Part shown: positions 18,151 through 54,599 of the stretch, piece after piece
How the letters are laid out: every line of letters starts with the position of its first letter
Position numbering within the stretch: the first letter of the stretch is position 1
NCBI GenBank assembly: GCA_008360955.1
Contig: LUCM01005575.1
Coordinates: 248,001-312,000, forward strand
DNA: 64,000 nt
Source of the DNA: Fasciolopsis buskii
Taxonomy: Eukaryota; Platyhelminthes; Trematoda; Plagiorchiida; Fasciolidae
Reading direction: 5' to 3'
Made by a program: the position numbers and the translations under genes
Notes under the pieces: model-generated
The model's database searches: none
What the model saw: only the letters and a program-made list of their open reading frames with translations
Told to the model about the DNA's origin: nothing

Positions 18151-21100
18151 TGACAGATCTTTGGTAGTCAGTCTAGCGGAGAGGGCTAAACTTTGATCAA
18201 GGACGGTACGTAATGCATTAAGCACAATACCGGAGGGTCTGGCCCCAGCCAAAGGGCGCATGATCTGAACAGTCAGTCATAGTTCCCCGCGGTTTATGGA
18301 CCCTCCGCTTCGCCCAGTTGCCTTACGGCTTAAGCTTTCGATATTTAAAGAGTTCGATTGTGGATCCCCAGGGAAAACTACGTGCGCTGATTTGGGGGAT
18401 CTTTCAGTAATGCGCTCACGAAAAAGTCGTGGATATGTACGACTATATTCCTATGTTGAAAATTGTTCACGAGGGGAGAATCGGAGTGAGAAGAAACGCA
18501 GAAAATAAAGTACAGTAAGAAGCAAAAAGATGTTTAAGTCAAAACATCGTAGCTCCGCCGCTGGCGATGATAACAGTCCCGAATGTTTCGGCTATGCTGC
18601 TTTTCAATTGGTCGATGAACGTTACTGGTATTTTGTTCAGATGCTTTTGTCAGAACATTTTACAAACTCTGAATATCTGGAAGGTGTCCCAATGAAATAG
18701 TCCTTTGGAAATTGTTCCATGTGTTTTGGATTAGCACAAAACTGGAGACTTCAGTGACCATTGAAGAGACCTAATGGCGCCAACTTTCTTCTAATTCTTC
18801 TCACTCGGTGGGGGAGTGTGTTGTTGTCATAGTAGACTGTTTGGCTTACTGATTCCTGCACATACCTTGCCAACTTATTCGAAAGTTTTACTTTGTCATG
18901 TACCATCCGGAGGGGCTGTAATCTCGGTTGTGCTGCTAATGTAGAACCCATTTTTTCAAGTTTTATCTGTAAACCTTCAGTTGTCTGGCAATGTATCTCA
19001 TACATATTTCTGCTTCACACATTCCAGTATCAGATGTTTTTTCCTCTCTAGACTGATCACGTTGAACGGAGACGACGTACCCATTCAGATGGATTCAGCT
19101 GGTTCGTGATCTGAAAGTGCACAAACATGTCGCACATTATATCCAAACGGTCCGGACAGCATAACACGTGCTGTCTGAACGCCGATGTAAAATCATAAGT
19201 GTTAGTGGTCTGGAAATTCGACAAGGAAACGGTGACATGAGGCTGAGAAAGACTCACTCAATGGCGATACTTAAAACCAAGAATAAGTACAAAGACTCAC
19301 TGGAATCAGGCGATTTATAAAAAGAAGGGGCATTGTTGACGTTGTGTGCAAGTTTTAACTCGCGAAATTTACCTCCGCGTTGTGATCGATCTCAAACCTT
19401 GGAATCACCAAATGAAAGCTGCTTCTAAAAATCTTTTTATGTTGCTCCTTCAGTTATTTGGTACCTAATTTCTGTTTGCATCCAGGCGCTATCTGGTAGC
19501 CCTTTTTTAGTAACTCCGAGACTGTTGCAGATGATTACGATTTATTATCAACATTGAGATGGTGGTTGGGATACGCATCAGACATCACCAGAAACTCCAA
19601 GTCCGACTGTGCTCAATTATGGTTTGTTGTAAATCAACCCCAAAATTGCGTGAACTCAACACAATTCAAGATCACATTATTTCAGGCTCTCTGCGTAAAG
19701 TAATCATGTGACATGAGTTACACAAAGCCCAATTAATCGACCAGATCAACAGAAAAGGCCAATAGGGGTTACTCAGAAACACGCATCATTTGGGAGGACG
19801 GATTAAACGGCATGGTATAAGCAAAGAGGAAAATGATACTTTCAAGTGTAAAGGAAAGCAATGGAAAGTACGGATATGGACCTCGGACTCCATATACGCA
19901 ATTACCGCAATTTTGTCGCTTACACGGTTATTTCAATGATCTATCACCATCGAAAAATTAATGTTCAAGGTATTGCTTTTTCACTATACATGTTATAATG
20001 CTAATAATACCTGCTGAATATTTTTTACCGTAGTCGAAAGCATGGCGAATTGGACTAGTTGGAATGTCGATTTGACTCATCCACTGTATCGAGCGACCTT
20101 GAAGGTCCATGTATATCTGATTTTCACAGGTGCTACGCTAAACCACTTTAATCCACTAGCATAATAGATTACTTTTCTGCAAACATCCGAAGTACGGCTA
20201 AAGCCACTTTGAACAATCCAAAGTCTAAGATGGTTGGATCAGAGCCGTTCGTCCGCGGTTTGCGTCAAACGGTGGGCATCGATAATGAGTTAGTAAATCA
20301 GATGAAAAAGCTGCACACTGCTTCTAGGATTTTTAAATGGTGCGCTGGGTGTTGATACTTTATGGTGACATTCAATTTCCTACTGCTGACATTAAACAAA
20401 AAAACATTGGAAAAAACAGGTAATAGTAATTAAGAAACGCATGGACCGCCCCAAGAGAATAGTATATAGAGAACGCAGATGAATTCGATAGAATCCAGTA
20501 CTAAACCACAACTATAGGCTGAAAGAAAACTCGCAAAGAATACGGGTACATCTGGAAGAACATTACTCCTATCAAAATGCAGGGATATTTCCATAAAATG
20601 AACGGATTAATAGGTTTGTGATAAGCATCGGACCAACCAAGGTTACCGCTACCGCAATCTGGGGGAAAATTGAGACATCTTGTAGACGGAAAGTCAATTC
20701 CACCAAGTGATCACCGATTTTGGATAGTTCAGCCCATGAGCCGAGCGAAGTATTGAGATTAGTGTCTGAGGTGCGTGCTTTTGAATGTTGAAGACGCTAA
20801 GCAATACTGATCGCGGGAAGAGAAAGTATTCGGAAAGGACGTCGGGCTGCTGAAATTACACAAATGTGATTCAAATTGGGGCACAGATAAGAAATGCACT
20901 GCTGAGGTTTACCAAGGGATCTCCAACAGCGAGTTGGATGCAACGATGAAGAACGTCATTCTTTCCGACGCATCCGAAATGATTTGGAGCACAGAAACAA
21001 CACAAAAAATATGAGGTACAGCTAACTCACCGGCTTGCCACATGCAATTCCCGTCGGGTAAAGGCGTGCTCAATCTGTTTCACATCTGGACGCTTTTTTC

Positions 21101-21359
21101 GTGAAGACCAACGGTCACTTGAATGACTCCGCAAATTACGGAACTCTCTTAGTCTCGAATAGTCCAGAGGATCATCAGTCTAGAAGAGATTTGAAAAAGA
21201 CAAATGTGTTGTCGAGATTGTACAGTTTCAGACTTTCCCACCAACTTTGCACCAAAGTGCTATGGATCTGGATAAAAGGAAAACGAGAAACAGTAAAAAT
21301 CGACAGCAAAATAATGCGAAGAACTGTAGAAAAGAGAAGAGATCTTGAAGACAAGAACC
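18151..21359. other. No supportable gene
   Basis: Minus-strand frames at 18751-19005 and 19057-19257 are open but match nothing I know. 19260-21100 has almost no open frame over 60 codons on either strand and looks like plain intergenic or intronic DNA. Confidence 0.5.
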
Positions 21360-25720: not shown

Positions 25721-28700
25721 GCCATCGTCTTGAACAAGGGCTGCTGACTCACTAGACTGATCGCTAATGTGAGCTCATCTAACATCAAGTTCAAAACCGT
25801 GTGTACGTTACGAGTTCGATTATGTGGTTGCCAGGTCAACGTCAGACAATTTAACACGGGTTGGAAATAATAATGCAAGCCCACGACAATAGACAAATGA
25901 GAAGTCCCGTAATGCAGGCAATTAACCCTTCTCACCGGGTTCTCCCGGATATTTTGTTTTTCTCATTGTTGCGGTTTTTCATCGGTAAACAGTTTTGTCA
26001 CATAGAGGCTGCAAACCCTATTGACCTCGGTAACTGTTATTACTATTAATCTCACTATTATTACAATTTCTGGACTTGGAAATCTTCAATCATTCTATCA
26101 CAATTCCTACGATGTGATACCGCGAAATGTAGTAACTGCTCCTTATGTGAGGGGAAGCGGATGGGACCTATCTGTAAGCTAAAAGTTTCAAATTATTGGA
26201 CGGCGTTTCTGCTTTGGTCTCGTGGCCTCAAGGAGATAACCAATAACCAGCATCGCAAATCTTGGACTTAATAGATATCAAAAAACGTAAGGATTCTATT
26301 CAGTTATCGACTTGGTAGGTGTTTATGGAAACTGTCGCCAATCGACAGTCATATGAGCCTGATAGCTCCAGAAGAGATAGCAAAGCCAATACAAAACTAA
26401 AATGGTGTTAGGAAAATCAGCAAGCATTTATTTAAATACTTAGGTGTGCATCACAGCCTTTGCGATTCCATTAGTATTTTTTCTTAATCCATTTCTCGAT
26501 AGCATATGTTGTGATGAGCAGACGCTTTGCTTGCATGAAACCAAAGGAAAGTTAGTACGCCCATATGGAGCAAAAGAAACCGTGGATCTAGCAAACCTAA
26601 AAGCCAAACAGGTGCTAGAAGTCGCTTTATCGCAACAGTACGGCCACAACCAATCGTAGTTTAGTGGCAAATGAACTAAGACAATCGGTGGGAAATTGGT
26701 CAATCAATAACCATCACGCAAATTGGATTAAGTTCGGCGGATGACTTTTATGAACCTGATATTTCATGGTAACAGGATTAGATGGTTCGAAGTTGTACAA
26801 GTTTTCATTCTAGATAATGGCTCGTGGCGTCGACCTTAAGATTTTATGGATGAAAATCAGACTAACGATGGTGATACGAAGGTGATACCAAACAACCTCA
26901 TGCTAAAGAGAGAATGGTCCCGTGAATTCGGTGCCTAATACTGAACAGGGCTTCAAAACGAACGACAGTTGTTTACACTGCATGCCCTAAGCGACAAGAC
27001 AAATGTGTGAAAGGTTAGCGCGCTGCGAACAGAACAAACGTTGACACTTGCATTACAGATAAATTTTCAAGAACAATCGGGAATCGTTCGGGATACTGAT
27101 CGAACGATAACAAAGGAGAAAAATAATTGGACACCACAAGGGAAATGCTAATGCGAAATACCATTGGTCCAGAAGTTTGGGGAAGAGCCCGCATGAATCT
27201 GGAAGGTCCAGAATGGAACAATTTCTTTTGAAAAGAGGAGGATTTACGGGTGGTGGATATTGAAGGTCGACACGAATGCGATGAAAACGCCGGTCAACAT
27301 GATTAATGAAGATCCACGGGAGTAGGTTACAAAGCCTGATGGACTAGACGGAACAGGGCAAACTCCGATTATTACACAATCACAGGCCACAAACGCGTGT
27401 AGCGCACAAAATCAGGTAAGGTTTTAGGGACGAGGACGTTGATTGAGAAAAACTCATCGTATCTTTAGGCACTGTTGCATCTTGTTTGCTGCAGAGCATT
27501 CAGTGAGCTTAAAGCCCTATCTTATACGGCTATCCATCAAGTTGGTGAGCCATCTGAGGGCTCACCAGATGATTCCCACAAAGCAGTACATCTAAGCCAC
27601 TGTAGATGCTGCCATGGTTTCGAACGGAGTTGTGGTGTGCGTAAACGCTGGTCAGTCGGTAGGACCAGTAAGCTAACCACAGATAAACATGGGCTGACAA
27701 CAATGGAAAAATATTTTCAAACGTCATCTAGATTAAGTTGGACAAAACGGATCAACCAGAAGCTAAAACTTACTAGCAACAGAAAATATTTTTTCGCTTT
27801 AATTGTCACCTCAGCCGGGGGGAGATCAACAGGAGGACCTGAACGACCATGAGGTTCTATGGACCGCTAAAATTCGGGGGCAGAAATGTATTCTTGTTTA
27901 ACCATGCTTGAGCTAATTTCGAAAAAAAGATTGCTACAAAACCAAAAGTGAAAAACTGCCAACCTTGGATGGGTTCAAATCCATGCATGCTCACAACCTA
28001 CGCTTTAGCAGTACTTCTGGTTTGGCAGCTAAGCCACAAAGTCAAACCAAGGAGTGTAAAGGTAATAGGCATTGGTTCATCATAAACACTGCCTTAGACA
28101 GAGCTCAACACAGCTGTTGTGACATGGCACTGGATGTGCCAGTCACTAATCTGAGCGAGAACACCGCATGAGAAAGTCGACGAAAAACGATGGACTAAAC
28201 TAGCCAGCAGGAGAATCGGTCAGTGAGTGTTAATCATGGAAGACCGGCAAAAGCTATTTCATTCTGACAAGTAAGTGAACTTTTGTGTTGGTTTGATTTG
28301 GTTTTTCGCAATATAGTTAGTGGCAACGGGTGATAGCGGTCGGAAGTTAGAATCGGTTGGAGATGAAGTAAAACAGACGTTTCTTCCCTTCCCTCCATTA
28401 CAAAACAAGGTATGGTAACGAGCCGGCGACCTGCCATTGTATTCATTTAGCTGATATACATATCCCGTATTTGTCCAGTTAATAAAGTACGGAAAGCTCA
28501 ACACGACGAAAGATCTCCAATCGTCCCCAAACCCATCCATCCCCTTCTCCAAGAGATCCGTACCATGTGTGCGCCAATGTTTGCTTCCATTGTGCCATTT
28601 TTGTCAGATCATGAAAGAATGTGATTGAAATTAGAAAACCAAAATATATTTAACAATTTCGGATTAGGGCAAAGGTGTCAAAACAAACATACCACGTGGT

Positions 28701-29057: not shown

Positions 29058-29111
29058 AAACGCTACTTCGCTTCTTCCAATCTAGCCCAGCATGCGTAAA
29101 AATATCACGAA

Positions 29112-30579
29112 AAGGTAGACGGTGGCCAGGCATACGCAATACGTGTCCAAGCCACCGAAGGCGACGTACACCGATTTTACCTCAGTCAGAGGACGACCGT
29201 CTGCACCCAACACACGACGATGCGCCTCGTCACTGCTCACCCGATATTCCCACCAGATACGAGCAATGCTTCGGAGATGTCAGGGGTCGGATACAGAAAG
29301 TCAACGGGCGTCCTCAACGCGGATAGGCCAAATCTCACAAACGTAAAGTAGGGCACTACGAACTGTGGCATTGCCCACCCATCCCTTGAGAGAAAGCCAG
29401 ATGTCGTGGTGGCACCACAAGTGTCGTAGGTCCATAAAATCTGTTCTGGCCTTCGCAATTCGTCATGTAACCTCCTCAACACCTCCGTCACGTGTGATCA
29501 GGATCACAAGGTACTTGAAGCTATTGACTACTTCTAGCTGATCACCACAAACAGTGACTGCAGGTACAGGCTCATGCCAGTCTTGCAGATGTGACTTGCA
29601 TTTTGAAGGTGCAAAGCACATACTGTATTAGAATATCTCAAACTCCAGGCGGTCCAGCGCACGTTGAATTGCCTGTCCAGTGTCAATCAGCAAGGCGATA
29701 TTGTCGGCATATTCCAAGTCAAAAAATATGTTCCCAGGGAGGAGTTTAACTCCATCGTTTAAAGGACCACACAGAGCATTCTGCAGAACATCCTCTATGA
29801 TAAAATTGAAGAGGAACGGCGATATAGGGCAGCATTGCCGGATCCCATTGGAACCGATAAAGGGTGACAAAAGCTATGAGCTCTAACCCGACCTAAGATT
29901 TAACGGCAAGACACTTTGACGACCGACATATTCTTCTTAGGTACCCCAATTCTCAACGAACAGTGCCATAGTGCAGGCCTATCAACAGAGTCAAAGGATG
30001 TGCTAATGTTCAAGAACACGACGATCGGTGGCCTTTGGAAAGTAAAACGGTGCTCTAACACCTGTCGCAGAATGAAGACCTGACCGACAAATCCAGGGCC
30101 AGCACGAAACCCAGTCTGTTCCTCACGAGTTTGCCCTTCACGCGTGCTGTACAACCTGCGAGGAACGACGGAAGGAAGCAGCTTTGACGCTATCGGGATT
30201 AAGTTAATACCCTATGGTTTGCGCTGTCACTACGCAAACCTTTTTGAAGTTGAGGAGAACCATCGAGGCCCCCACGAGGAAGGAATGTTCCCGGAGTACC
30301 AGATCTTTGAGAATAAAACGTGAAGGTCTCTGACCAGTCCTCCACCACTGAATAGAGCTGGGGAAGCACAATTGCAGTCCGGCGCTTCATAAAGTTCTAT
30401 GGCTTGGATTTCCCTGAGGCTTTCCGACTCAGTTGGTGGATCTGTTGTAACAAGCCACTGGACGCTTGCCGAAATAGCTGCGAGAGAGGCTGACAATGAG
30501 GGCCAGTCGGAGCTACTAACCACCCCACGCGTTTGAGCGATGGCCAGAAATTGCCATAAAACGGAATACCTGCAGTCAC
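29112..30579 (-). mobile_element. RTE-like RT, copy B (family I, most complete RT in the window)
   Basis: Minus strand, from the RT N-terminus: TTDPPTESESLREIQAIELY, ALFSGGGLVRDLHVLFSKIW, REEQTGFRAGPGFVGQVFIL, RQVLEHRFTFQRPPIVVFLN, FDSVDRPALWHCSLRIGVPK, CCPISPFLFNFIIEDVLQNA, DLEYADNIALLIDTGQAIQR, then the tail as in copy A. Motif A has VFLN instead of VFLD, and motif C has YADN instead of YADD, so both catalytic Asp sites are damaged. In-frame stops include those at 29628-29630, 29463-29465 and 29301-29303, and all three recur in copy A. Homology ends abruptly at 29112, so the last ~100 residues seen in copy A are missing. No EN is found upstream of 30579. Confidence 0.93.
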
Positions 30580-32879
30580 ATCTGAAAGCCTATAAACCTC
30601 AATTTCCCGAGATTAATCGAGTTGCTCCACTAGAGCATGGTAGTCAAAAGAGTGTAGGTTCCAAGATCATTGAAACTAAGTAGTAACTGTAGCGATGCGC
30701 TCACTGGGGTTAATATCTTCGGCTCCTTCACTTCTGTGCATGCTCAGATCGGCGACGCAACCCCTTTCGAAAATCCTTGCTTGTGTATTCTACACGACCA
30801 TATGATTGTCCATTTGACAACAATCGGTAGTGTAACAATGTTGCCCTACTCAAGATTTTGCATCGAATGTCCGTACTCGTCATCGAAACGCTTGTATTTT
30901 TTGGATCTACTCTTAGTATCAACCAAGGCATTTGCACCAGGCTCTTGAGGAACATTCGATGAGCAAGTTCACTAGAGAAAAGCACGATAGCCGCAGCACG
31001 TGATCTCAGGATTGAATTAGATCATTTACAAGAAGTCAGCTTTTACTGCAGTTAGGTTTCTTATTTTCCGTGATTTTTTGACTCCGGTAGATTTTGCAAT
31101 AAAACTGCTTACAGTACTTTAAAATGACGTGAAAAATAAAATTAGTCTAGCAGTCTTATGTATATGAATCTGAAAAATCCATGGAGGAATCGAGAATTTT
31201 CGTCATGGCATGGATAAGGTGAGTTGTGCAGGATGATCATGAAACCAGATCTAAGTAAAAAAAAGTCAAATCTTTGTCCATGACAGCTAAAGGTTGGCGG
31301 AAACCACAATGGACTAGCAGTAAACTATTCTGGCATTCGGCATGTCTCCCATGCCCAGGTAGTTATTAGTTACGTATACTAAGAAAGAAAAGTAAGTGCA
31401 TCTGGTAAGTTACGAAATGGCGAAATAGTTAACGCAACACAATATACTGAGTGCACATCAGTCTCACGGGATACACATGCGAGACTATGTTGGCGGAAAA
31501 ATTTCTTTCCCCTGCCGGGTTTCAGTGGTCAGTGTACAGTTAGCGATACCGCAGAAAGCTTGCAACTTACTTCAACTATTTGATTGGAGATCCTCGGCAT
31601 GTTCACAATCGGATACTTCCACCAAAATCAAATCGAAACTATCGCGTGAAGAAATGGCTGCTTAGAGACCTATTCCGATTATGCGATAATAAGAGAGAGT
31701 GGGATAGAATCCTGTTGTTCACCATAATAGACTCCGACGAAAGGACCATCACAAAATAAGAATCTTAGCTTAGACTATTCAAAAGAAATGTGCCTTTGTC
31801 TTGACATCAAAAAGCTACAGAGAGTCGCGACTGAGTTAAAAATCTCTTCGATGGAAGATTAAACTGTAACGAATAGGAAGTTTAACCAACCGGTCGGCCA
31901 TTAATCTGTAAAGATAAGAATATTGTTTTCGTACTGTCACTTCTATGATTGTAATAATTTAAATGGAAGATAGGAGGAAGGAAATGATGCTTCGGGTAAA
32001 AAACAAGGGTGTGTCTGTATGTGTATTATGGACGTACAACTGTGCGCACCGCACGAACGTTGCGTTTTGAGGGAATTGACAAGGACAGACACCGGGACGC
32101 CTTTTGTTCGGAACGCTTCCATCCTTGGCTCGGGGAGTCCGCAGATCTTGGCAAACGAATTCGCGCCTCTTTCGCATCGCGTGCAGGACAAGCACAACAT
32201 CGAACACGAACCTTTTGCAAACCGAGAATATCGTATTCAGAAGTATGCTCGTTCCTGTGACAGATAGAAATAAGGAAAGGGGGTTGAGTAGGCAGAACAA
32301 TGATTCGCACGTCACGCAGTGTCAACGCCCAGTGTGTCGAGCGTCGTACAGCCGACCCAACCTGGTGTATGCAACGCGCCCGAACTGGGATGTGAACGCA
32401 AGATGGACGCTTATGAGTAGAATGTCATGGCTTCTAGGTTATCCAAGCTGAACTCCAACTTCCTACTACAGAGGGCACACGTCCCCCATTGGTTTTGAGA
32501 TTCAAGAGCTTAATTGTAATGCAGCAAGATAACCTTCATCTTCAACATGTTCCCTGGATACGGAGGTCATAAGTTTATCACAAGAACTGAATTTTCGATC
32601 GAAAACATAAAAGGCAGTACAGACTTAGGAATTAGACTACATGCCTTCACCGAAATTCTTGCAGCCACAAAACTGCATTATCCGTTTTACAATGACAGGA
32701 AACTTCAACCACATTGAGCAAAACGACCAACTGTGACCAGGATTAAGTCACGTGGGTATTTCTTTTAGAACTAGTAAAAAAGATTCTGCCGGATGAATGG
32801 CACACAGCAAATCAAATAGACTGCGAACATAGAATGGGCAATCCACTTACGCACTAAGCATCAAAAAACCGACGCCATG
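30580..32879. other. No supportable gene
   Basis: Overlapping frames on both strands at 31943-32451 compete with each other and none shows homology. The remainder is AT-rich with few open frames. Confidence 0.45.
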
Positions 32880-34479: not shown

Positions 34480-35526
34480 TCACATAGGCTGCTTGGATTC
34501 AAAACGGATATCAGTCAACCAAGTTACTGGAAAATGAGCTTAGAAGACATGAATACATTACTCGCCGGAGGTCGAGGTTTATCTCTCCACGCACTGCATA
34601 TAATATGTACAGACTGTGCAAAACAGACCCTAGGAAACAAATAAAAACAATGTGCTGATGAAACTTACGATCGAAAGGATTCCAAAGTTACCAATAGCTC
34701 GACTTCACCTTTTGACCCGAAACCAAGACAACTGTTGTAACAATGAATTACGCAAAGAATAGATTTCCGGACGGTAGGTAACAATGTCGACTGATCCTGA
34801 CTTAGATCCTTCTCAGAATCATCTGTTCGATCTTGAGTGTATAATTTCATGATATCCAAAGGTAAACACACAGATATCTGATCACGCGAGCATACTCGAA
34901 GGGGTCCACTTCGCGTGTACTGAGCACTCCCATCTCGTATTTCTACGAAAGACAACTCCTGCAAACTGGAGCCCTGGTGAGTTCGGCATCTGAAATATGT
35001 AAAAGACATTCCAAATTGCATACCGCTCTACAGGATGTATTGCTCGCTCGGCGTCCGTGAAAACAGGAGTCACTCTTAGCCACCAATCAAGAGGCGTTAC
35101 TGACGGACGAAACGCTATCGTCATTGGCCACTGTCGACCACGAGGGACGCAAATTTGTGGCACGTCTGTGCGTGAGGTCGGCTCAATCACCTTGGGAATA
35201 ACACGATATAGATTTGCGGAACAATGAAACTAACCTGATAATGTGTTGTCACACAAGAACCGGGTTTCCCTGGAGTGGGAATCTTAAGATGAAAGTCGTG
35301 ATATCCCCTACATGGTTTGCTAGAAAAAAGCAACAACAAGCGTTGATACTTTTGACTTACCTGACATCCGTGGATAATCTTCTGTAACTGTTGACTAGTG
35401 GAGCCTGAGAGAGAATCTGGAATGTTGCATTCTAATAACAAATCAGACATTGAATACTACCTCAGTGTTGCTTATGAACTGAGCCAGCGACTCGGGGCTA
35501 ATTCTCAGCTCTTCGTCACAGGATAG
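34480..35526 (-). CDS. p53-family transcription factor, DNA-binding domain (partial gene model)
   Basis: Seven minus-strand exons join in phase: 35461-35526, 35361-35431, 35235-35319, 35024-35190, 34669-34989, 34562-34629 and 34480-34526 (stop). They give 274 residues without the true N-terminus. Introns are 29-44 nt with GT..AG ends. The product reads as a p53/p63/p73 DNA-binding domain. GYHDFHLKIP (about 50-59) matches YGFRLGF; the ICVPRGRQWPMTI region matches FCQLAKTCPVQL. VERCRTH (C131, H134) matches VRRCPHH, CYNSC (C213, C217) matches CNSSC, VTLES matches ITLED, and CSAWRDK (C248, R252) matches CACPGRDR. All four zinc ligands are present. Human R248 is Lys223, the R273 position is Ile246, and about 30 extra residues lie around 175-205. 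N-terminal exons and a tetramerisation domain were not found. The last exon is the least certain. Confidence 0.85.
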
Positions 35527-37910: not shown

Positions 37911-39019
37911 CGGTAGGGAATCGTAAACAGGGGCGATCGTCTTGTCATATTTTGTCGAATCAGGATGATTGGGAACAAATGCGTCCGTACGATTAGAGGG
38001 CATATATGTGTTGGCTATTACGATATCTTTTCCTCCGCCCTCTGTAGATCTACCTTCTGTCCCTACTGGATATTCAGATTCTATAACAACATACAACCCT
38101 TGAAAAAAGTCAGTGGGCTGCGGAACTTGCCCTGCTGTTTACCGCTGAACGATGATGATGAGAGTGATGACGCTGTACTATGTGCTATGGAGTGTAAGAA
38201 CTGAAAGGATGATAGGCGGAATACAAATCCAGTGGAAAACCAAATGTGACTAAGTTGATAACCAAAGCAATTAAGTATCCCACAGGACTTTATAGTGTTC
38301 TTGCAAAACCTGAGTGGTAATACACATTACTACTGTCATCTATGACGGTAACTTCATTCATTTTTCCAATATATGTAGTGGCTCATGCATTGTCATTAAG
38401 AAACATCATGCGGTGAGCACTGTGGTAACCTGAGCAGCATGTCTCCAAACTGTCCCCGACGGTGACTTGTTGCAGTGGGTTGGAAAACAGTACAAACCGT
38501 CATCGCTGGGGACTAAAAATCGTCCACCGATAGTTCCCGGAACGTTTCATCCGGGCGCCTTCGGGAACTGCTATTTGCCCTCAACAGGGGCAATTTTCTA
38601 CCAGAAGGGCATTATTTTGGGATTGCTTCAAAGCATGAAGGATAAGAGCAAACCTGTCGGAATAATTATTCAATGTCCACATTGACCTAGAGACATCGGT
38701 ATAGAGCGTACACTCAACACGTTCGGATTCCGGGTACCTTTGACGTAAATTTGCATGCCCGTTTCGAAGTGAAGTAGGAAATGGTACATGCCACCGTGGA
38801 CCACATAGTTAACAATTTTTTGAGGAGCATAGTTCCACCGGACATACGCCACATGGCTTTTAGCACGCCCGAATAATTCGGAGCCAGACTTTATTGTGCA
38901 CGCTGAACCAAACTGCACCACCATGGGCGAATTAATACGTAGAATAACAATAATTTACGAAACACTTACTTGGTTCCACGGCAGGAAAGACCGTTGATAA
39001 TTTTCGTTCATTCATCTCC

Positions 39020-39211: not shown

Positions 39212-42200
39212 CTGAGCGCTTAGCGGTTTGGCTACTGAAAGCAATCGTCTGGATTTGTAGATGCACATCATAGTTTCCATCTACAGTGCTATCATTTTTC
39301 TTGGTGCAATACTTGCCCTGCTTTTGCAGTCGCAAGTGAACGTGCTCGAGCCTTCTGGCCACACGTAAACTTTCCGTAAGACGAAGACAGACAGAATCGT
39401 CCGTGTGCATGCACCTCCATATCGCTGAGTTTCAACGAGACTGGTTAACAGTACCACAGTTAAAAGAACTGTAATTCCAGAGACACTACATCAACGTAGC
39501 CCAGAGTTCGAGGAACGATAAGCTACCAAATGGTCGCCGTGAAAAATTGCGAACTTCCGGATGGGCACTTCAATGGCAATCAAAAAGGAACAGGGGATGA
39601 TTGACAGACCAAATATTCCCGGCCGACGAACGAGTCAACTTACTTAGCTCTATGAAACAGAAAATATACGAGACTCGGCGCGGCGACCGCAATGGATAGG
39701 GCGCCCATACAGCGTGAAGTAATTCTCATTTAGGTCCTGGACAAGTTTCGTTACTTCTTTGCACATTCAAGGGAACGTGTTTTCCCAAGCCACAACACAC
39801 GTGTTGAACGGATGATCTCTCTAACTAAACATAGAACAAAAGCATCGCTCTCTGGAGACTGCGTATTAGTGAAAATTGACGTGACCTTGAGGTTATAGTC
39901 TCATTTGTGGAGGTAGCCGAATGTGAAAATTTCAACACATCCGCCATTTTTGTTCTCTATATTCTATCTCGGTGAATGATATATTCAGAAACTGGCATAA
40001 CACGGTATCATCGTAGAAGGCCATAGATGGTTAACATTAAATCCCGTGTTATAGGGCAAAACACATCACATGCGACTTCAGAACGGTCGGGCATAATTAC
40101 AGCGAATCAACCGGGCCGATTTTCTTTGTACATTATATCCTGGGGTGAGTGCCACCAGTAGACATGCAAGTCAAACGACTTAGTATGATACAGTGGGGAA
40201 AACAGCCTTCATAGGCTGAAGTCCAATGTTTGACGTTAACGACAGTGGTTTGTGCCCTAGGTTTCTTCAGTGAAGAGCTTTGAAGCAAGACCAAAATTTG
40301 CTACGTCAATTCACATCATGACAGGTTTCATGAACGAGTGATGGAGGCTTTAGGAATGGTGTTCCGACATCAGGGCTTCCTCGGAGCGAATTTTTGTGAC
40401 ACCCTTGGCCTCGGTCTTTACTTCAGCAAATCAAACCTCTTCGTCACCGATGCGAAATTCACTGACAATACAGGAGAGAAGTGACATATATGGTATAATC
40501 CACGGACGTTTGCCGGTTCAATCTAAAGAACACGGTGTTTGAGGTCCTACAATTGTTGCATCATTATTGGGTGGTAAACTGACAGGATTATGCAGGAGGT
40601 CGAGAGGGATAGTCAAAAGTTTCGCATGCATTGATGGCAAGACCAATATGCAGATAAAAATGTTGGGAAAGAATTGGCCCAAACTGTACCAAATCTATTA
40701 AAGGATGGGAATTACACCTTGAAATCTACGAAAATACTGATTTTACACAAACTGGTTGCAACAGTCGCGAAAAGGTGGGATTTGATATCGCCCTGGAGGT
40801 ATGGAGCGGCTTGTTTGCAAGCGTCCTTTCGTGGAAGGCACCATCGGTCCCTAAATACACGTGTCACAAATATTCACAACAAGTTCGTTTTTCAATATGT
40901 TGGTGCAGTCATTAGGATTGGTATATGTGGAAACTTTTACCATGCCTCCTGTGTTAATAGTTGCCGTCATGTTTTCCACCCAGTCCTTAGGTTCCTTTAG
41001 GCTATGGATGCACAAATAGATCGGTGGTAGAGCGTGGGTATTTCTGGCGGAAAGCCTTGAATGAGACTTAGGTCTGCATGTGAGTTTGCGCTACATTCCA
41101 GCAGAGTCTGAAACACGGAGATGGAAAGTGGATCCGACCCTCGCCCACGGTTTAGTTTGTGGTTGCCCGGGAAACGCAAACTGAGATTGACAAAAACATC
41201 GATTACTATCTAGAGTTTTGCATTTAGGTGAAATTTGATAGAGACAGTGTATAACAAGTGACTCATCATGTGTCTGGAGATTTCCATCCCTGAATATGGG
41301 CGCGGCGGCCGGGAAATGGAAGCTGAAATTCAAAACCTGCCACCGAATTTGAACTTAAATGGAACAGACTGATATCACTGCCTTAGGGCCATTTATTAGA
41401 TATGAAACGGTAGTGCCTTTAAACGTAGGGTGGATGCCGAAAGGCTGATCTAACGGGTTGCGGTATTTCAGTTCATTTCGGTTTGTTTCCAGGATTTGAG
41501 GTCTGAGTGCTTGTTCGTCCGGCCTCTTGTTTCGGTGAGCATCTTGTATCTCCTGGCACTTTGATGATGGGAAAACCAAAGACCTATTCATTCTGCTTTG
41601 ATGGGCAAAGTTCCATCTGCCTCTAGCTTTGCTGGTGATCTGCAAAGCTCTAATTAGATAAGAATCTTACGTACTTTGCGATTACCGGTCCGGTATTACG
41701 CAAAACCGGAAGGTGATCGTGAATCGAATTACTGATCAAACCCGGAGATCTTCCGTCGAGTAACCCGCACAACACTCATGTGCTTATACATGAAATCGTC
41801 TGCCGAGCCTGCGCCGGCTAATTCGGTTTGGAATTCGTTCCATCCATTTATGGTTCTTATCAAAGAAGCATGGCCAGTTGCTCCCATTTTTGCACATCCC
41901 TTTTTGATGGCCATTTCTTGGCTTCTTGGCAAAGAGTTGTTTCTTACCTCGAAAAGGTAACCAGTTTATCCATTACCTTTGTCTATTCGATACTATCGAT
42001 GCTAATATGACGTCGCTTCTAAATCTTCTTTCTTTTGGAAAGTAGGACGATCCTGATGCACATCATCGGCAACCGTCGACTGTGCTCTACTTTTTACCCA
42101 AGTGCCTGTAGTTCCACGGATCAAGGACATTCTGGAAGTCCATGTGGCAGAAATCGATTTGTTGCTTCTGTCCAGTCGGCTAGTAAATTTTTCGTGGAGG

Positions 42201-44689
42201 CTGGCCCTATTCGACAAATGCAATCAATCCTGCGTAAAATCGTGCTGGCATGTGGACCGCAGATTGTTGCGCTTAGGCTGTTCCACCGTTCTGTCCCTAA
42301 CGATGCTTGAGAGTTATCGAGTTCAGATTGATAAGCCTACGGCAGGAAATGTGGCGGGCGTACCGAGTGACAGTTCAACTAGCTACTTATTTCAGTTTCC
42401 TTTTCCATTCGGACAGATTCATTGCTGTCGTCCAACAACGAATGTCTTCAAGCTTAGTATTCGTACGCTTCTATTTGCAATGTCACCATTCAAGTTTCAC
42501 GGAACCTTGCGTCGTCCATGGATTAGTCCAGACATTGATTTCTAGCCTGCCAGTGAATGGTGCAGTCAAAGTTAGACAATGCGTATTTGCTTTTCCCTAG
42601 GGATAATAGTAAACATAGCGATATATTATTTAACTGCGTCGATGGATATGCTCCAGTGCAAGATCAAACTCTACGTAGACGCTACAAATCGCAGAGAAGA
42701 AAGTGCTTCAAAAATGAAAACAGATATCGGGGTTAGTCCAGATTATCTACCTGACATTCAGCGCAATACAACGCTCATAAGCACCAATGGCGCGCATTGC
42801 AATCACAAAGCTCAGTTGGCTAAGGGCGGCGAATGTCGAGGTATGGCCTCAGTAACTGAACCTAGTAGCCCTATAAAATAGACGTGAAAGTCAACTGGTG
42901 ATGCTGGAAATCAATAAATTTCATGAATACTGGACAGGTAATTGTCAAAATTGACCGAAATGGGAAAGAAAAAAGGTTTCAAATGATGCACAGCAGTACG
43001 ACGATGAAAAGGGGCCGGTCCTTGCACCTTGGTTCCTTCAGCCAAGGGAAATAATCAGAAGCCATTTGCAAATGCGGAAAAAGGCAGAATAATAATACAG
43101 GATTTTGGTAAGACCATGCCACGGAGAAATGGAAGTAAACCGCCAGCAAGTGATTGAGGAATATTATGCAACGTTTTGAATAATATGTTAAGCGCCAGTA
43201 ACACGGCCTTCTGGTTTCAGAACGAATAAGGCTACAAGCATAGGGGAGCCATGAGTGTCGGGGGAAAACTGACGATGTTAGGAGATAGAAAGTCGTGACG
43301 ATATTCGAAGAAGATGGATTTTGTGGTCGCCCACGCGGCGATTGATTGCCAGTGGGAGTTGGTAGCCATCGTTGGGCAGTTCCAGCAGTGAAGCTACATA
43401 GTTGGGAAGACTTGTCCATTCACAAAACGTTGACGTTTAGGAGCAAACTGCTGGGCCTCAGTTTCCAGACAGACCTGTGGTTTTGGTGTGTTTTTTCGGC
43501 GTTCCCCGGGGTTTGGGAGTAGTGTCTCCCTTAAGCGGGACCCATGAGTTGGGTCACGCTTGTCCATCCTGAAGCAGTAATTCTGAGTTTTGTGCCTGCC
43601 TGCTTTCCTGGTTTGGAGAGACAAGCAAGAAAGGAGCCAGAATCTGGATAGTACACTATTGATGAGACGCCTTGAACGGAAAATAATAGAAAGGTGGTGG
43701 TCTAAAAGTTTTGGTGAGGATTTTGATCCGCGTTGCAGAAACGGCGGGTTGCGAAAGGTGGTGTTTTTTAATGAGGCGGTAGATGATGCAACGCTTTCCG
43801 AATAGGGGGCCAGGTGACACTTTTGACCAGAAAGGAGAGTCAGTTGATGATAAAAATGTTGATTTGGGGTAGATATCTTATCGCCATAAATGTACATCTT
43901 TCTATTTATCTACCTTGTACCATGCTTGTTAAACACGGGCAATCCGGATGGGTAATAGTTGCGTCAGCAGTGTTTTGTGGGCAAAAAATTGCGGAAGATC
44001 AGCCAATTCCTTCTAATTGTGGCCGCAAAATTACGTCCCTTTGGAAACTATGGCGAATTCAACCGACTTGTCATTGAAGTAGAAGCCGAGCGGATTGTGC
44101 AAATTTATTATTTTATACGGATGGCTTTTTACATGGGAGGGAATATTTGACAGTGAAGTAGTTCCTAAATGGTATCTCGTACGCAGGAACTGAGATCACG
44201 AGCTCATTAAGGTGCAGAGCATCCTTTTGCGAACAACGCAAAGAAGAGAGGTTAATTTTTGCTTGGGGTAGCCAGGAGAAAGATAGCCCAGAAGTCGTTT
44301 CTTAAATATTCGATGAACGTCATCAATCTCGGCTCTATCGCAGTGTCCCACATCAGAAGACATGACAGGACGAGGATGAAGAATAGGCCTTACTTGGATT
44401 TAGTTTATCGAAAGCTTTCTTTTTGGATTTCCGATTTTTCTATGCATTAACCTAGCTGGTGTTCTGGCCTTTGCAATTTGGATAACTGTGCGTTCAGAGG
44501 GGTTGAACGCCACAAGGTAGTGCTAAACCAGACACTAGACTGCTTGTTAGATAGCAGTGGTTTTTTGTTGGATTTGAAGTTTCCTGTTGGGGTGTGGCAT
44601 TTGTGCGCAAATAGGTTGCTTTTGTGTGAATCGACGAATTTGTGCAATCCGAATCAAGGGAGGGTAAATTAATTTTTATGTCGCTCAGG

Positions 44690-45235
44690 GCATTGCATAT
44701 GGAAGCATATTCAGTTTTGGTATCACTCGTGTGAAGTTAGCAACTGATATTTTGTTTTTCTTTTGATGGTACTTAAGACAAGTGAGTGGGACTGGATCTA
44801 TAATTAGATTTACTTCTTCGGGCCATTTTGTAAATTGGGACAAGGACGGAAGTTTTTCTTCGATGAGGAAAGATCCCGCCGCCCAAAAGTAAATTGTGCA
44901 AATTGCACAGCCGTGTTGGAATACCCGCACCCAGAATTTAATGGAGTTTGGAAGAAGCCCATCTAGCCCAACTTGCAAATACGGTGTTTTTTTCAGATAG
45001 CAGTTAGGTGATACCGTTTCGGTGGAGTGCAAATTTTGCGGTTTGAAAAGAGACTAAAGCATTGTCCTGTACGGAATAAAAAGGCACTGAACATCCCTGA
45101 TGATGTGCTGGTGGGACCCCTAATATGGCCGATGTGATGTGTGAATTAGATAGGCAGTTGCCTATTCTCAATAATCTGTTTATTGCTGCAGCGTCGCTTG
45201 CAGGGTGACATTCTAAAAATTCCTTTTTCATAGGA
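44690..45235 (-). mobile_element. CR1/Jockey-type LINE RT fragment
   Basis: Minus-strand frames, read across small shifts, give LLGGGIFPHRRKTSVLVPIY and KSNYRSSPTHLS. These match the RT fingers of CR1/Jockey-type LINEs (L..G.fP..WK.A.v.PI.K.g....nYRPvSLTc). Before it, VGLDGLLPNSIKFWVRVFQ resembles the preceding SPGpDGip...LK segment. Palm motifs are not recognisable downstream. This is a different LINE type from the RTE-like elements in the first 38 kb. Confidence 0.65.
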
Positions 45236-48200
45236 ACTAATAGACTTTCTAATTCTGTCGGATAAACGGCTGGTCTGTAATGTCAGAAGAAACTCGCGGG
45301 CCTGGTTGAATCAGAAGTGTGCCGGGGATCACTCTTTGTAGGCAGTGCAGAGAGCCAACATATTTGGGACGCATTGAATTGGGTTGGTTGGATCCATTTA
45401 GTGGTCAGGAGTTGTGTAAAATTGATTGAATGCCAATTCGGAGTCCAAATAAGGGAAGCAGCGCAAAATTTTGGCTACAACGTGTGAAGTGAGGAATTTC
45501 CCGTGGGGCTACGTGCTGTGGTATGATTGAGGCTGAAGAGGAGAAAACGGACAGATAAACCAGCAATGCTGTTGCGTCTCTTTAATGACTAGATGCATGC
45601 TCAGGGTAATATCAGTTGGTACATGGGTGGTGATTAAATATTTTCGGGGAGGATGATTATAAATTCCAAGGTACCGAGGAGGTTAGATGAACAGAAGCAG
45701 CTGAAATCAACTAATAGAATCAGAAAGAACACAATTCCAGGCTGTCAAGATGATGTAAACATTTGTCCCGAATACAGGAAGACCTTAATGCTGTGTCTGT
45801 TTGAATACATTAGCAAGCAGAAAATAAAAAAGCTACCCTCACAGGGAGAAGTAAACATCTGCCTAAATGTGCTCTTATAAGCGATAAAGAACGTCATATA
45901 AATCGGCTTGAAAAGGGATGGGATGCCGAAAACAAATCAAGATTTAATGCCATAAGAAGGGCAATTGCGAATCGAAGGAATTCCTTTGAAACTACGTCAG
46001 TAGCAAAAAACGTAGGAGTGTTTAAGAATGCTGCAAGGAGTTCGGTTGAGGATGAATAAACTCTAAAAAGGACCTGACGACGGGTACAATTCATTGACCA
46101 GTTACAGCGAATGAAAAGGATAACTGCTGCTGTTGTTTCGACGCACTTATGGGAGGGTGGAAATCGATGAAGGACCATTACTATATGACCGGAATAGAAA
46201 AAATGATAATTGGATTAGATATTGATGCTTTCAATAATAAATTATAGATGTTTTGCCGTTTAGGGTTTTTGCTCGCTGGGCTGCAAAAAAGTTGGCCGGA
46301 AGCAAGGACAACACAATTACAAGGAGTTGGCGGTTGAGCCAGCGTGGGCTCGATGGTAAGCGTGTAGAATCGTTTGACCATCTCGTCGCTTGGAACACCC
46401 TAGGTTTCCCCGGGGGTACGCTCGGCTGTGGGACCCAACAGGAAGTTAAGTCAGGGATTTGAATCCAGCGTCCGACGGCCCACGGAAGGCAAAATGGGCT
46501 GGCAGTGTGGTGGTCATGGTGACGGGCTAGCGTCGGTGCCTAAACTGCATTTGAAATCCAAGAACAGGGACACAAGCGAACGATTTGGGACGGAATTCAC
46601 CGGAAGGGTTCGACGGATCAAATCGGACCAGTCAATCATGCTGCTCGACAGTCTAGAATGACAAAGAAAAGAGAAGGCAGTCAGAAATGTGTCCCAGGTG
46701 AAGCAATATGGTGCGTGACAGAAAGAAACAGATAAATGAACTAATAAGCATGTCTAAAAGTTTGTCGGTGAACGAGAAAACGAGGTAGACATGGCATTAA
46801 AACGTCTGCCGGTTGGAACATCCGGGAATAGTGATGTACCAAAACTAGGTCTATTCTCGGACTCGTTAGAACTATTTTCTTTACCCAGTGGGCTGCAAGG
46901 CTGGGTATTGTCCAATTTGCATGGGTAAATGTGGTCCTTTTGTACGCTTCCAGATGCCGTGACTGTGAACACGAAGGCTAACTAGAAAGAGAGGCGATGC
47001 AGCCCGGGCCATAGACAACCTGGTTAATGCGATCGACTTATGATGCAACATTCCCATCTCGGCTATGGGGAATAGGGTAGTAAACAAGGTTTTATAGAGA
47101 GACAGAAATCCGAGGGATTATGTGAAAAAAGAATTTAAGGAGAAATAAAGGTTGAAAATCTTGGTTGGTTGGAAAGTTTCAACAGGAGAGAAAACAGAGG
47201 AGTGGTTCGGCGTCGTCGTCTGAAAGCAATACGTGGATGGTACTGTCGCTGGTATAGTTCAAGGATAACAGGGTAGTTTGGAGACTAAATCAGATTTAGT
47301 TACAGCTGGTTGGGATCAAGCAATGGTGACGAAACACAGGCATTCTCCATTTTTGGACATGCGATAGTAGATTTTCACCTGTAAAAGAAAAAAGAGCGAA
47401 GAGTTTTTAAAACATTTGGCATGTGAGTGGTAGATGTTGCAGAGGAACTGATCATACACGCCTAGCGTGCAAATGGGAAGACTGGAAGTGGGATGAAAAC
47501 TTATACGGGCCGGGTCACGGATAAATTTGGAAAGCCCAGTGCACTAATGCCCCACTAAATCTACAGTTTAAGAACCAGTAGCACTTCAAGCCAACACGTG
47601 CACTGTGGGGTTTCGCTCCTCGCAGAATCGGAGCTAGACCGGTAGGAGATGACCCTTTTCCTTTACAACGCGGTCTAATATTCTGGGTTTATTTCTTTCT
47701 GGCGGAGATATGGATCTCTTATATAGGAAATTTCCAAACCTCCGTCTGACCACAATTTTCCGCATATTGGCAACCTAATTGTCACGGTTTAGAGTGATCA
47801 GTTATTCCTAAGGTCGCACGCCATCGCCCTTGCTATTGCAATAGAAAGTCCCACTGCACAAGACTGTGCAAAATGAAAGTACAGATAGGCAATCACACGG
47901 AGGAGTACAACATTTGTCGCACAGCACGTCACTGGGAATATGAACAAAGACAATGCAGAGCCTGTTCCCTTTTCTTGATTTAAACCACGCCTTTGGGTCG
48001 GTCGGGTGAGTGGAGCTTAACCAATGTGGAAAACAAGGACTCGAATTTACCCCTTGGCCGAAAGCCTGGGGGTCCAGAAGTAAACAGGACGGAATAAATA
48101 TCACGAGAGAGAGGGCACAGAAACATTTAGGAAGGAAACAACCATTGAATTGGTGGGATTATTTGTAAGGAGCTAATTGCATTGCTTCAGTAAGAGAAAA

Positions 48201-50349
48201 TAGAGCGGCTGGCTAAGAACGATAAGAGGGAAATGAAAGGAACACAAGGCTGACTTAAATTAGACGGCAATCTCTAGTCTGAGGTCACTTGTCAGTATGG
48301 TAATGTACTTGCTGTTACCGGATCCCGGTTTAATTGTGCGGAGTGTAGCGTAGATGGAGGCGTCTGGTTAGGTCTCATAAGTCGGCGGATGATGCAAAGG
48401 TACGCCCCTCTGAGCTATGGATGTTGGTCATTTGAAGATATTGGGTGGCGCTCAGGCAGATATTTTTGGCGGGTTTAAAACTGGATTGATTCTGTTTGCA
48501 GCTGATGCGCTTAGAATCGAAAAATGACACAAAAAAGAACGGTCATTCTACTTTGAAGTTCTCTGATTCAATTTCTCGATGAAAGTTCAATACGAATGGC
48601 ACATTGGCTTAGTTATTGGTGCCAGGATTATTCTTTCCCTGAAAAGAAAATAGGAGTAAACCAGTAAAAAACGTCTCAAATGCCCAGAAGTTGGTCATTG
48701 GTTGAGTTAATAGGTAATGCTTTTGGACTAGCTGAAAGTATGCAGTCATCAAGAAGGCCTATTCTGGGTTGTTGAGCCAAAAAGGAGAATAGGTGAACAT
48801 AAAAAGGACGTTTTATAGAAGACGAAGTTCTATAAAGTCAGAAAATTTGCTGACCTCTGATCCGTTTAATAATGTGTGAAATCATATTATGAATTGAACA
48901 ATTTGCCACTTCCGATAAGAGGACCTTCACCACACGAAGGACAATAATAATAACAATAATAATAATGAATATTTCTCGATTTACAAGAACCATCTGCTAT
49001 GCAAGATCAAATTTTTATAAGGATGATGCAGAGGAGACGCGAATAACAAAATTATAAAAAAATAAAGGATGCGTGGTGCCTTGCGTTATTGGAGATGCAT
49101 GCTGGAAAGTGAAATGAGATGCTGCAAAGCAATAGGGAATGTACGGGTGGGCCAGTGAGAACCAGAAACTAGAAAACTGATTTTTCAAGACCAAACGGAG
49201 TTTCCTGGGACTGTTTGCAAGCAGTGGACTACGAGTCATTTCCTGTTTAAGTGCGCTAAATGTGAGCATCGCTGGTGCAAAACATGGCTGGAGCTCAGCG
49301 CCGGATGTCGGGGTGTGTCCGGAGTCCCAAAACGTCAACAGCGTTACGTGATGCGCGGAAACGTTGAGCCGAGAAATGAAGCAATGGCATTACCGTGGGT
49401 AGATGGAATTAACAAAAGTCACGTGGAACACCATGTAAAGTGGATAAGACAGTCGCATTTGACAAAAATAAACGGCCGATGTAATGTTGAAAATGAAGGA
49501 AAACTGTCAAATTTGTCTCAAACTCTCCGAAGTCTATTTTATGCAGACTTGGATATGGAGCTCCCAAGGCTAGTCATTGTATTTACATGCTGATGGAAAT
49601 AAGCTCTGCTGGGAGGTTCGTCGGATAAAAGAATTTTGCGTGAAAACATCTAAATACACTAGCCAAGAATGTCCTCTATGATACCATTGTTGTTGTCACA
49701 GCTTTTGATCATAATCAACAGTACAGGAGGGGATATGAATTGCGCGAGTCGTTCCAGAGGCATTAGTAAGTGTGTTTTGTCCACCGGCATAGATCTGATT
49801 TCAGGTATCCAAGGCAATCAGCGGCTTAGTTTTGGCTGAACGGACCAGCACTCGAGCACCAATTCCAGCTAGCAAGATCGATAGGATAGCCGACGCAGAA
49901 TTGCCATTACGAGGACGGAACCGGCAATAGCGCGTCTACTACGGGTGCGGGATCTGAAACGCAAAGGAGCAAAGTAGCCTGGCTTGAGTGCCAGCTTGGG
50001 GTTATGGTGATTACTGGATCGCGACAACATATCTGTACCATAGTACATCTTTTCCGTAAAATTTGGTAACTAGAATTGAGCAATGGTAGCAGTGTTAGGG
50101 TAGTCGAAGGTCCAAGGCTATTAAGAACGATCTATTTAGCCTTGCCAAGCCAGCAAAGAGGGTAATATGACATGGGGGGGCGAGGAGCACACAGGATGAA
50201 ATTGTTTAAAATCACGGGATGTGATGAGAACATGTATCCCACAAGAAGTGCCCTGACATTTTAATCCGCCCACACTGGGGAAAGCTCAGAGGTTAGTCGA
50301 CTAAGGCACTGGTAAACAGGGTAGATCACATCAAGGGAGGTCAAAGAAT
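45236..50349. other. Mostly unassigned; AAT repeat at 48942-48966
   Basis: The minus strand stays pyrimidine-rich with medium open frames (45894-46178, 47808-48104, 49015-49338), suggesting more decayed LINE DNA, but no motif is clear enough to call. A plus-strand stretch at 46260-46660 (RVFARWAAKKL...) looks like a low-complexity interspersed repeat. The AAT trinucleotide run at 48942-48966 has one interruption. Confidence 0.4.
48942..48966. repeat. (AAT)n microsatellite
   Basis: AAT units with one AAC interruption. Confidence 0.9.
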
Positions 50350-51480
50350 GCATTATCGTAGACGTGGGAGGAACTGAGGAAGTAAGAGTTGAATCCGAAA
50401 CCCAAATGGTGATCTCAGGAAAGATTCGGTCATGAACAAGAATTCTAACTCATTTTCGTAGGTCTCGTCTAGTCCAATGTTAGCTCGCATCAAATTAAAT
50501 AGCAGCGGCCATCCAGTAGCATTGCCTGTTGGGCTTTGAACTGGGCCAAATTTGGGCAAGACCACAGGGAACTAGGGAGTTTGTTCCACAGTTTAGATTA
50601 ATCAACTGTAAAGAACTTTTCCCTTATCGATAGTCGAGTCAAGGGCATTGTTAACGAGTAGCATTTACTATGAAGGGGGTATGGCGGCCACCGGCGTCGT
50701 GTATAATGTTTGTGGTGGAGTGGACATCATTACATCAAAGATTAAAGGGCAATGCAAGGTTTAATTTGACTCGACGAAGCCACAGTGGTTCAAGTCCAAG
50801 CAGCTCGTGTTTGGCCCTGTAGTTTAGGCTAGATGAAGGACCTAGGAGATTTCTAGTGGAAGCCCGCTGCACATTCTCGGTTGCCATTTGACCGACTATA
50901 CGCATATGCGTGAAGATAGTCGGGTAGTACTCGAGGTGAGGCGTAGCATGGGACTTGGAGGTGATAATTCTGCGGTCTTGAGTGCGGAATGCCCTTTAGG
51001 TCATTGTAATGGTTCTTTCAGCTACGGCGGTCTGATAGCGGGTTTGCCAGTGGAAGTTGAAAGAGCAAGGGTATTGTAACCCTAAGTCCTTAACTGTGTG
51101 TGATACAAGAAATGGCATGCCGTTCATGGGGAGGAAGCCCGGAAGAACATGGCATTTGTACGTTATCAGAAAACTCTTGTCAGCAGAGAACTTCGTAAGC
51201 CACCTGGAACACCGGTTATCAAGAGACTGCAAGTCTTCAACGATAAGTGCAAGAGTGGAGCTAAATGAAGCAGCCTCAAAAGAGTAGACCATTTCAATGT
51301 CATAAGCAAACAGAAATGGTGTGCCAAGACCAATAACTTTTAAGATATCATTAATGTATAACAGGAATAGGACAGGACCAAGGAAGCTCCCTTGAATGAC
51401 CCCACTGGTGATAGCGCAGGGTGGAGAAAAAATACCGTTAATGTTGACTGCCCGAACGCCATCAGAAAGTTAAGACTATG
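50350..51480 (-). mobile_element. CR1/Jockey-type LINE copy 1: RT palm to C-terminus
   Basis: Minus strand: VNINGIFSPPCAITSGVIQG, SFLGPVLFLLYINDILKVIG and TPFLFAYDIEMVYSFE are RT motifs B and C, normally GVPQGSvLGPlLFLlYINDl and FADD. Then come SLDNRCSRWLTKFSADKSFL, SHTVKDLGLQ, a LEY-type segment, LLGPSSSLNYRAKHELLGLE and a C-terminal LSIREKFFTVD, KLWNKLPSSLWSCPNLAQF, the CR1 hallmark R..FF..RVV..WN.LP...V....v..FK. FADD reads FAYD, so the first catalytic Asp is lost. The tail is otherwise well kept. A second copy lies upstream at 54.6-56.45 kb in the same orientation. Confidence 0.88.
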
Positions 51481-54300: not shown

Positions 54301-54599
54301 CAGTTTAATCAAGGTCTAAAAATCTAACAACTTTATTAGCTGAGAGCTAAAACGAGATAAATTGGGAGTGACTACAGCCAACGTTGAGGTTAGTTCCCGA
54401 GATAAGCTTGGAAAATTGTGAAGACATTTTGCGTTGAACGATATCCGAGTCAGTGAGATTCGCAAAGCGCAAAATCTGTTGCGAAACAGTTACGGGTAGC
54501 TATGGATGTCATGCATGATTTTGGTATCAGCGTGAACATTATAATGATGCAGATTAAAGGGAAAATCGAGGTTCATATTGATGCGGTGAATCCATAGTG
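54301..54599. other. Junction between the two LINE copies
   Basis: No motif recognised. It could be the 5' end of copy 1 or the 3' UTR of copy 2. Confidence 0.4.

Follow-up and report, generated by a model that had tools for sequence, protein, structure and literature searches.

A putative p53-family gene split by micro-introns in the fluke Fasciolopsis buskii and its likely assignment to p53-2

Organization of the locus

The window analysed here is a stretch of 64,000 nucleotides of Fasciolopsis buskii DNA (GCA_008360955.1, contig LUCM01005575.1, positions 248,001 to 312,000), and its minus strand probably carries a p53-family gene. Ten predicted exons between 39011 and 20759 (18.3 kb) join in phase, free of internal stops, into one open frame of 433 residues, of which the last exon is tentative. 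The gene escapes a single-frame reading because four of its nine introns are micro-introns of less than 45 nucleotides (29, 41, 44 and 34 nucleotides; introns 2 to 5) and five are longer, one of them with retrotransposon remnants; introns 1, 6, 7 and 8 measure 3.4, 2.4, 4.2 and 6.6 kb, and intron 9 measures 181 nucleotides. A preliminary description made from the letters alone had confined the gene to 34480-35526, an extent that proved too short, the end of the domain lying outside it at 32254-32038.

The 433-residue model matches the Pfam P53 profile (PF00870) with 63.8 bits at a cut-off of 27 (E 2.6e-17), and the alignment spans profile positions 41 to 188 of 193. The preliminary description had claimed a p53-type DNA-binding domain made of spliced exons and had proposed a profile search with the joined protein; this search bore the claim out, PF00870 matching its own join above the cut-off (44.4 bits, E 2.3e-11). 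By comparison, 65.4 bits (E 8.2e-18) were reached by a 304-residue model, in which the large exon of that description is joined to the segment starting at 32254, and 30.8 bits by the public protein FBUS_00633. With the 304-residue model, p63 and p53 were also found among solved structures (best E 4e-5); among the best 60 of 102 solved-structure sequences, 59 are named p53, p63 or p73 (one as a fusion) and one is named just 'DNA-binding domain'. In addition, residues 40 to 403 align as a single domain, at 220.7 bits, to a profile built from P0006, P0008, P0009 and P0010, four proteins of schistosomatids with 424-431 residues; the window itself did not enter this profile. On the unspliced window the same profile finds three pieces of 79.6, 40.6 and 40.2 bits against a best score of 9.3 bits in 30 Markov-simulated windows, and the match therefore exceeds chance. 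Pfam, independent proteins of trematodes and, for the corrected exons alone, solved structures thus speak for a putative DNA-binding domain of the p53 family that micro-introns interrupt.

Exons and introns of the model

All exons lie on the minus strand. Exon 1 (38970..39011; 42 nucleotides) is predicted to begin with ATG, encodes MNENYQRSFLPWNQ and ends at a GTAAGT donor; it equals, letter for letter, residues 1-14 of FBUS_00633 (P0001), and its resemblance to schistosome N-termini is weak. Exon 2 (35461..35526; 66 nucleotides, phase 0-0), the first exon of the preliminary description, is tentative: its ATGTAG acceptor and GTAGTA donor keep it in phase with both neighbours, exons 1 and 3, it is absent from FBUS_00633, and it aligns with schistosome N-termini only loosely. 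Across the junction of exon 1 with this tentative exon (39011-35461, minus strand), the predicted N-terminus reads SFLPWNQL, with the spacing F-x2-W-x2-L; the activation domain of human p53 has F-x3-W-x2-L, which the fluke motif recalls but does not match.

Intron 2 (35432..35460; 29 nucleotides, GT..AG) leads to exon 3 (35361..35431; 71 nucleotides, NATFQILSQAPLV...), which is present in P0001 and in which the alignment of the schistosomatid profile begins at residue 40. After intron 3 (35320..35360; 41 nucleotides, GTAAGT..TTCTAG), the DNA-binding domain region begins with exon 4 (35235..35319; 85 nucleotides), likewise present in P0001 and aligned by the schistosomatid profile. Intron 4 (35191..35234; 44 nucleotides, GT..AG) ends in a weak acceptor, CCCAAG. 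The junction that it creates, YQ/VIEP with the slash marking the splice, corresponds to YQVI, YQII or YQVV in four of the five orthologues reaching it (P0003, P0006, P0009 and P0010) and to HGVV in P0008. Reading intron 4 as frame-0 coding sequence (FHCSANLYRVIPK...) was rejected, as the orthologues favour the spliced junction; exons 4 and 5 lie in different frames, and intron 4 therefore cannot simply be translated through.

Exon 5 (35024..35190; 167 nucleotides, WPMTIAFRPSVTPLDWWLRVTPVFTDAERAIHPVER) is matched by tblastn with P0003 of Trichobilharzia szidati and is the unspliced piece that scores 40.6 bits with the schistosomatid profile. At intron 5 (34990..35023; 34 nucleotides), the junction VER/CRTH matches VVQRCKKHE of P0003. 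Exon 6 (34669..34989; 321 nucleotides) holds the predicted zinc ligands C145, H148, C227 and C231 together with the predicted DNA-contact loop. It is an in-phase cassette, entering and leaving in phase 2, and is absent from FBUS_00633. Its unspliced frame matches Pfam P53 at E 0.0039, below the curated cut-off, and it accounts for the 79.6 bits with the schistosomatid profile as well as for tblastn matches from P0003 and from P0004 of Echinostoma caproni. Exon 7 (32038..32254; 217 nucleotides), present in P0001, encodes the end of the DNA-binding domain, ILGLQKVRVRCCACPARDAK, and unspliced it reaches P53 at E 0.00034, again below the curated cut-off. In P0003 and P0004, which are independent proteins, TLE is followed directly by the segment encoded here at 32254-32038, 2.4 kb away, and the junction matches TLESCRS-DDPFSAVYDILGL of P0004.

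Exon 8 (27774..27866; 93 nucleotides, VDLPPAEVTIKAKKYFLLL) was found by tblastn with P0004 (E 3e-6). The distance from AVRT to VDLPP is 13 residues in the model and in P0004 alike, and the boundary after KKYFLLL coincides with an apparent retained-intron read-through in P0004 and P0005. The acceptor of exon 9 (21031..21179; 149 nucleotides, TDDPLDYSRLREFRNLRSHSSDRW...) falls exactly at TDD, which is shared with P0003, P0007, P0008, P0009 and P0010; P0006 has TDN. A profile built from the C-termini of six orthologues gives this exon 12.7 bits, with no score above 9.3 in any of 40 simulated windows; its evidence is moderate because the score with the whole-length profile, 8.2 bits, lies within the range of simulated windows. 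Exon 10 (20759..20849; 91 nucleotides, stop TAA) is tentative and is proposed from frame, splice signals and total length only, the 433 residues comparing with 424-431 in P0006, P0008, P0009 and P0010. Sequence of trematode relatives spans the junctions 4-5, 5-6, 6-7, 7-8 and 8-9.

Public protein models and other features of the window

A protein search with the join of the preliminary description gave two matches at E <= 1, FBUS_00633 and P0002. The former, a "hypothetical protein" of Fasciolopsis buskii, is encoded over 197 of 197 residues by 39011-38970, 35431-35361, 35319-35235, 35190-35024 and 32254-32026. It thus shares exons 1, 3, 4 and 5 and the piece 32254-32026 with the model, with the domain end at 32254 (ILGLQKVRVRCCACPARD), but skips exons 2 and 6, losing all four zinc ligands, and continues through the donor of exon 7 (32037) until it meets a stop. 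Each of the two skipped exons is flanked on one side by an intron shorter than 39 nucleotides (29 and 34) that is unused in FBUS_00633, the short introns of which are 41 and 44 nucleotides long. Four introns of 29-44 nucleotides and five longer ones probably misled the public gene predictor; as a guess, exons 2 and 6 may have been dropped through a default minimum intron length near 39 nucleotides. Should flukes truly skip exon 6, which seems quite improbable, a single gene would give rise to two products, a p53-2 that binds DNA and an in-frame form lacking the zinc-held loops, a possible blocker of the first.

P0002 (35190-34633, minus strand) comes from a contig of 6839 bases and is an annotation artefact. 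It is window DNA in which TGA is read as tryptophan, running through exon 5, intron 5 and exon 6 into the next intron, with 185 of 186 residues accounted for.

Reverse transcriptase pieces occur inside intron 7 at 30211-29903 and 29873-29631 (minus strand; RVT_1 E 4.1e-5 and 1.4e-4) and outside the p53 gene at 51469-50999 (minus strand; E 6.7e-4), all three below the curated cut-off. Two repeat copies, 13252-13965 and 29072-29819, have the same orientation and are 92.8% identical over 748 alignment columns; the second overlaps the remnant in intron 7. In each of the eight 2-kb steps that cover 42001-58000 the guanine-cytosine skew lies between 0.14 and 0.30, and in the remaining steps between -0.13 and 0.10. 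Rfam, applied to the whole window at gathering scores, gave no match.

Zinc ligands, DNA contacts and fold

The zinc-ligand motifs C-x2-H and C-x3-C are both present, as C145, H148, C227 and C231. The preliminary description had placed them correctly as C131, H134, C213 and C217, its numbering differing from that of the longer model by 14. Their human counterparts are presumably C176, H179, C238 and C242. In the alignments, the CxxxC loop lies on C-SSC of p53 and p63 chains, and CxxH lies on RCPNH or RCPHH, weakly with a single sequence and well with an orthologue profile. In the alignments, the predicted DNA-contact places are S230, K237, R269, C273 and R276, which we take to be the counterparts of human S241, R248, R273, C277 and R280. 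A naturally occurring R273H change, an idea that arose from exons 6 and 7 of the preliminary description, disappeared with the corrected exon 7, in which the R273 position is R269. On the assumed human numbering, the fluke protein has kept the counterparts of C176, H179, C238, C242, R273, R280, C277 and R175 of human p53, p63 and p73 (PF00870). It differs from them in having K at the R248 position, in having extra residues ahead of the CxxxC loop and again from TLE to ILG, and in that Pfam did not detect a tetramerisation domain. For nine proteins the tetramerisation domain PF07710 was not listed at E <= 10, and the 433-residue model was scanned at E <= 0.01; the filters applied discard weak short matches.

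A structure model of the orthologue P0010, rather than of the 433-residue protein, has a predicted local distance difference test score (pLDDT) of 37.9. Its best matches belong to the p53 family, in VIA rows from Foldseek's own list, which leaves no room for other folds. For P0010, strands (331-338) and a helix (372-401) were predicted with low confidence.

Relatives among trematodes

Profile A2, run against 3205 candidates in a search that reaches relatives with shared short words and similar length, returned ten proteins at E <= 0.001. Nine of them are named, all from trematodes, and the remaining one corresponds to the DNA analysed here. P0006 ("Tumor protein" of Schistosoma japonicum) and the other schistosomatid proteins P0003, P0008, P0009 and P0010 share with the model the zinc ligands, the CYNSC motif, the VRCC-x-CP-x-RD motif and a KKYF or RKYF strand followed by TDD or TDN, although identity to schistosomatid proteins is 34-38%. 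Compared with P0003, the model is six residues shorter after the CxxH motif and has another C-terminal tail. Schistosoma p53-2 (Smp_136160), considered here by description only, is likewise a trematode protein with a p53-type DNA-binding domain, and the two likely belong to one orthologous group. The function of Schistosoma p53-2 has reportedly been studied by Wendt in PNAS in 2022.

Interpretation and alternatives

The locus is best explained, with good confidence, by a minus-strand p53-family gene (39011-20759) of ten predicted exons and a 433-codon frame, likely the p53-2 orthologue and encoding a predicted zinc-stabilised DNA-binding transcription factor. Exons 4-7 would fold as the p53 beta-sandwich. 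C145, H148, C227 and C231 would hold zinc, and the loop pair so held may sit on DNA, with R269, R276, C273 and K237 predicted to meet it at what are presumably the places of human R273, R280, C277 and R248. The C-terminal strand-plus-helix segment of exons 8 and 9 may serve assembly. By analogy with Schistosoma mansoni p53-2, the protein might take part in the DNA-damage response of stem and germ cells.

Where the gene ends, and whether it is intact, bear on this explanation. The preliminary description gave neither strand nor exon coordinates, and its seven exons were rebuilt on the minus strand, whose frames fit, with introns at 35460-35432 (29 nucleotides), 35360-35320 (41), 35234-35191 (44), 35023-34990 (34), 34668-34630 (39) and 34527-34489 (39). 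The rebuilt join is open for 273 codons, and its seventh piece has no in-frame stop at 34480. Relatives uphold its exons 2-5, and its exon 1 is loosely supported. Its exons 6 and 7 (34629-34528 and 34488-34480) found no support, so that the first four of its six GT..AG micro-introns were retained and the last two fell. That the gene nevertheless ends there, with an alternative 3' exon at 34629-34480, is hardly credible: donor 34668 could join acceptor 34630 after 39 nucleotides and the frame stays open, yet these last two exons raise the P53 score only from 41.5 to 44.4 bits (+2.9), whereas the segment at 32254 raises it to 65.4, and their sequence was seen in none of the aligned relatives. 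The sixth exon alone had no Pfam match at E <= 10, and the solved-structure search with the rebuilt join found no p53 at E <= 1, its three chains being two Piwi proteins and one abscisic acid receptor. The interval 34480..34629 (minus strand) is accordingly not supported as coding exons of the p53 domain. A decayed or non-expressed p53 copy, to which the retrotransposon remnants inside one intron might point, deserves very little credence against ten exons in phase with no internal stop, the retention of the zinc ligands and most contact positions, and a total length near that of the schistosomatid orthologues; moreover, the search with P0001 (which lacks exon 6; six candidates scored) revealed no second copy.

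Excerpts of PMC11732142 describe two p53 genes in parasitic flatworms, p53-1 being common to planaria and human and p53-2 being found in parasitic flatworms only. In schistosomes, Smp_139530 is p53-1 and Smp_136160 is p53-2, as given in parts of PMC11349301. The fluke gene might instead be p53-1, orthologous to Smp_139530 as well as to the p53 of planaria and human, and would then regulate stem cells and the tegument, the latter being under p53-1 control according to a passage of PMC12693960. In favour of this unlikely reading, the search of the F. buskii assembly (703 Mb, 6974 contigs) with P0001 gave five matches, all from this locus under the scope just stated, and P0006 of Schistosoma japonicum is named simply "Tumor protein". 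However, p53-1 is termed the canonical form in a portion of PMC11349301, yet the fluke protein reaches human p53 and p63 at just E 4e-5, and profile A2 found no named match outside trematodes within its reach. Furthermore, Fasciola hepatica has a gene, D915_001973, which is known here by name only and is called p53-1 in an excerpt of PMC11484910; a p53 homologue of that species, FhHiC23_g6525, is named in a section of PMC12688102. In PMC6981761, on p53 in Holozoa, Schistosoma is named in a figure legend only. Assignment to p53-2 is favoured because the named relatives are trematode only and the likeness to human p53 is weak; the protein is likely a p53-2 orthologue, as judged by comparison with sequences that carry neither a p53-1 nor a p53-2 label.

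Significance

In excerpts from schistosome studies, p53-2 has been proposed to respond to DNA damage in parasitic flatworms and to have evolved independently (PMC11349301, PMC11732142), and its knock-down is described as shielding proliferating cells against radiation (PMC11732142). A regulator of the p53-2 kind had been recognised in schistosomes before; the public model of the fluke gene omits the predicted zinc-binding part. Micro-introns can lead automatic annotation to miss the functionally central part of a conserved regulator, a p53 gene being filed here as a hypothetical protein. If the fasciolid gene model is correct, the role of p53-2 would become testable beyond schistosomes.
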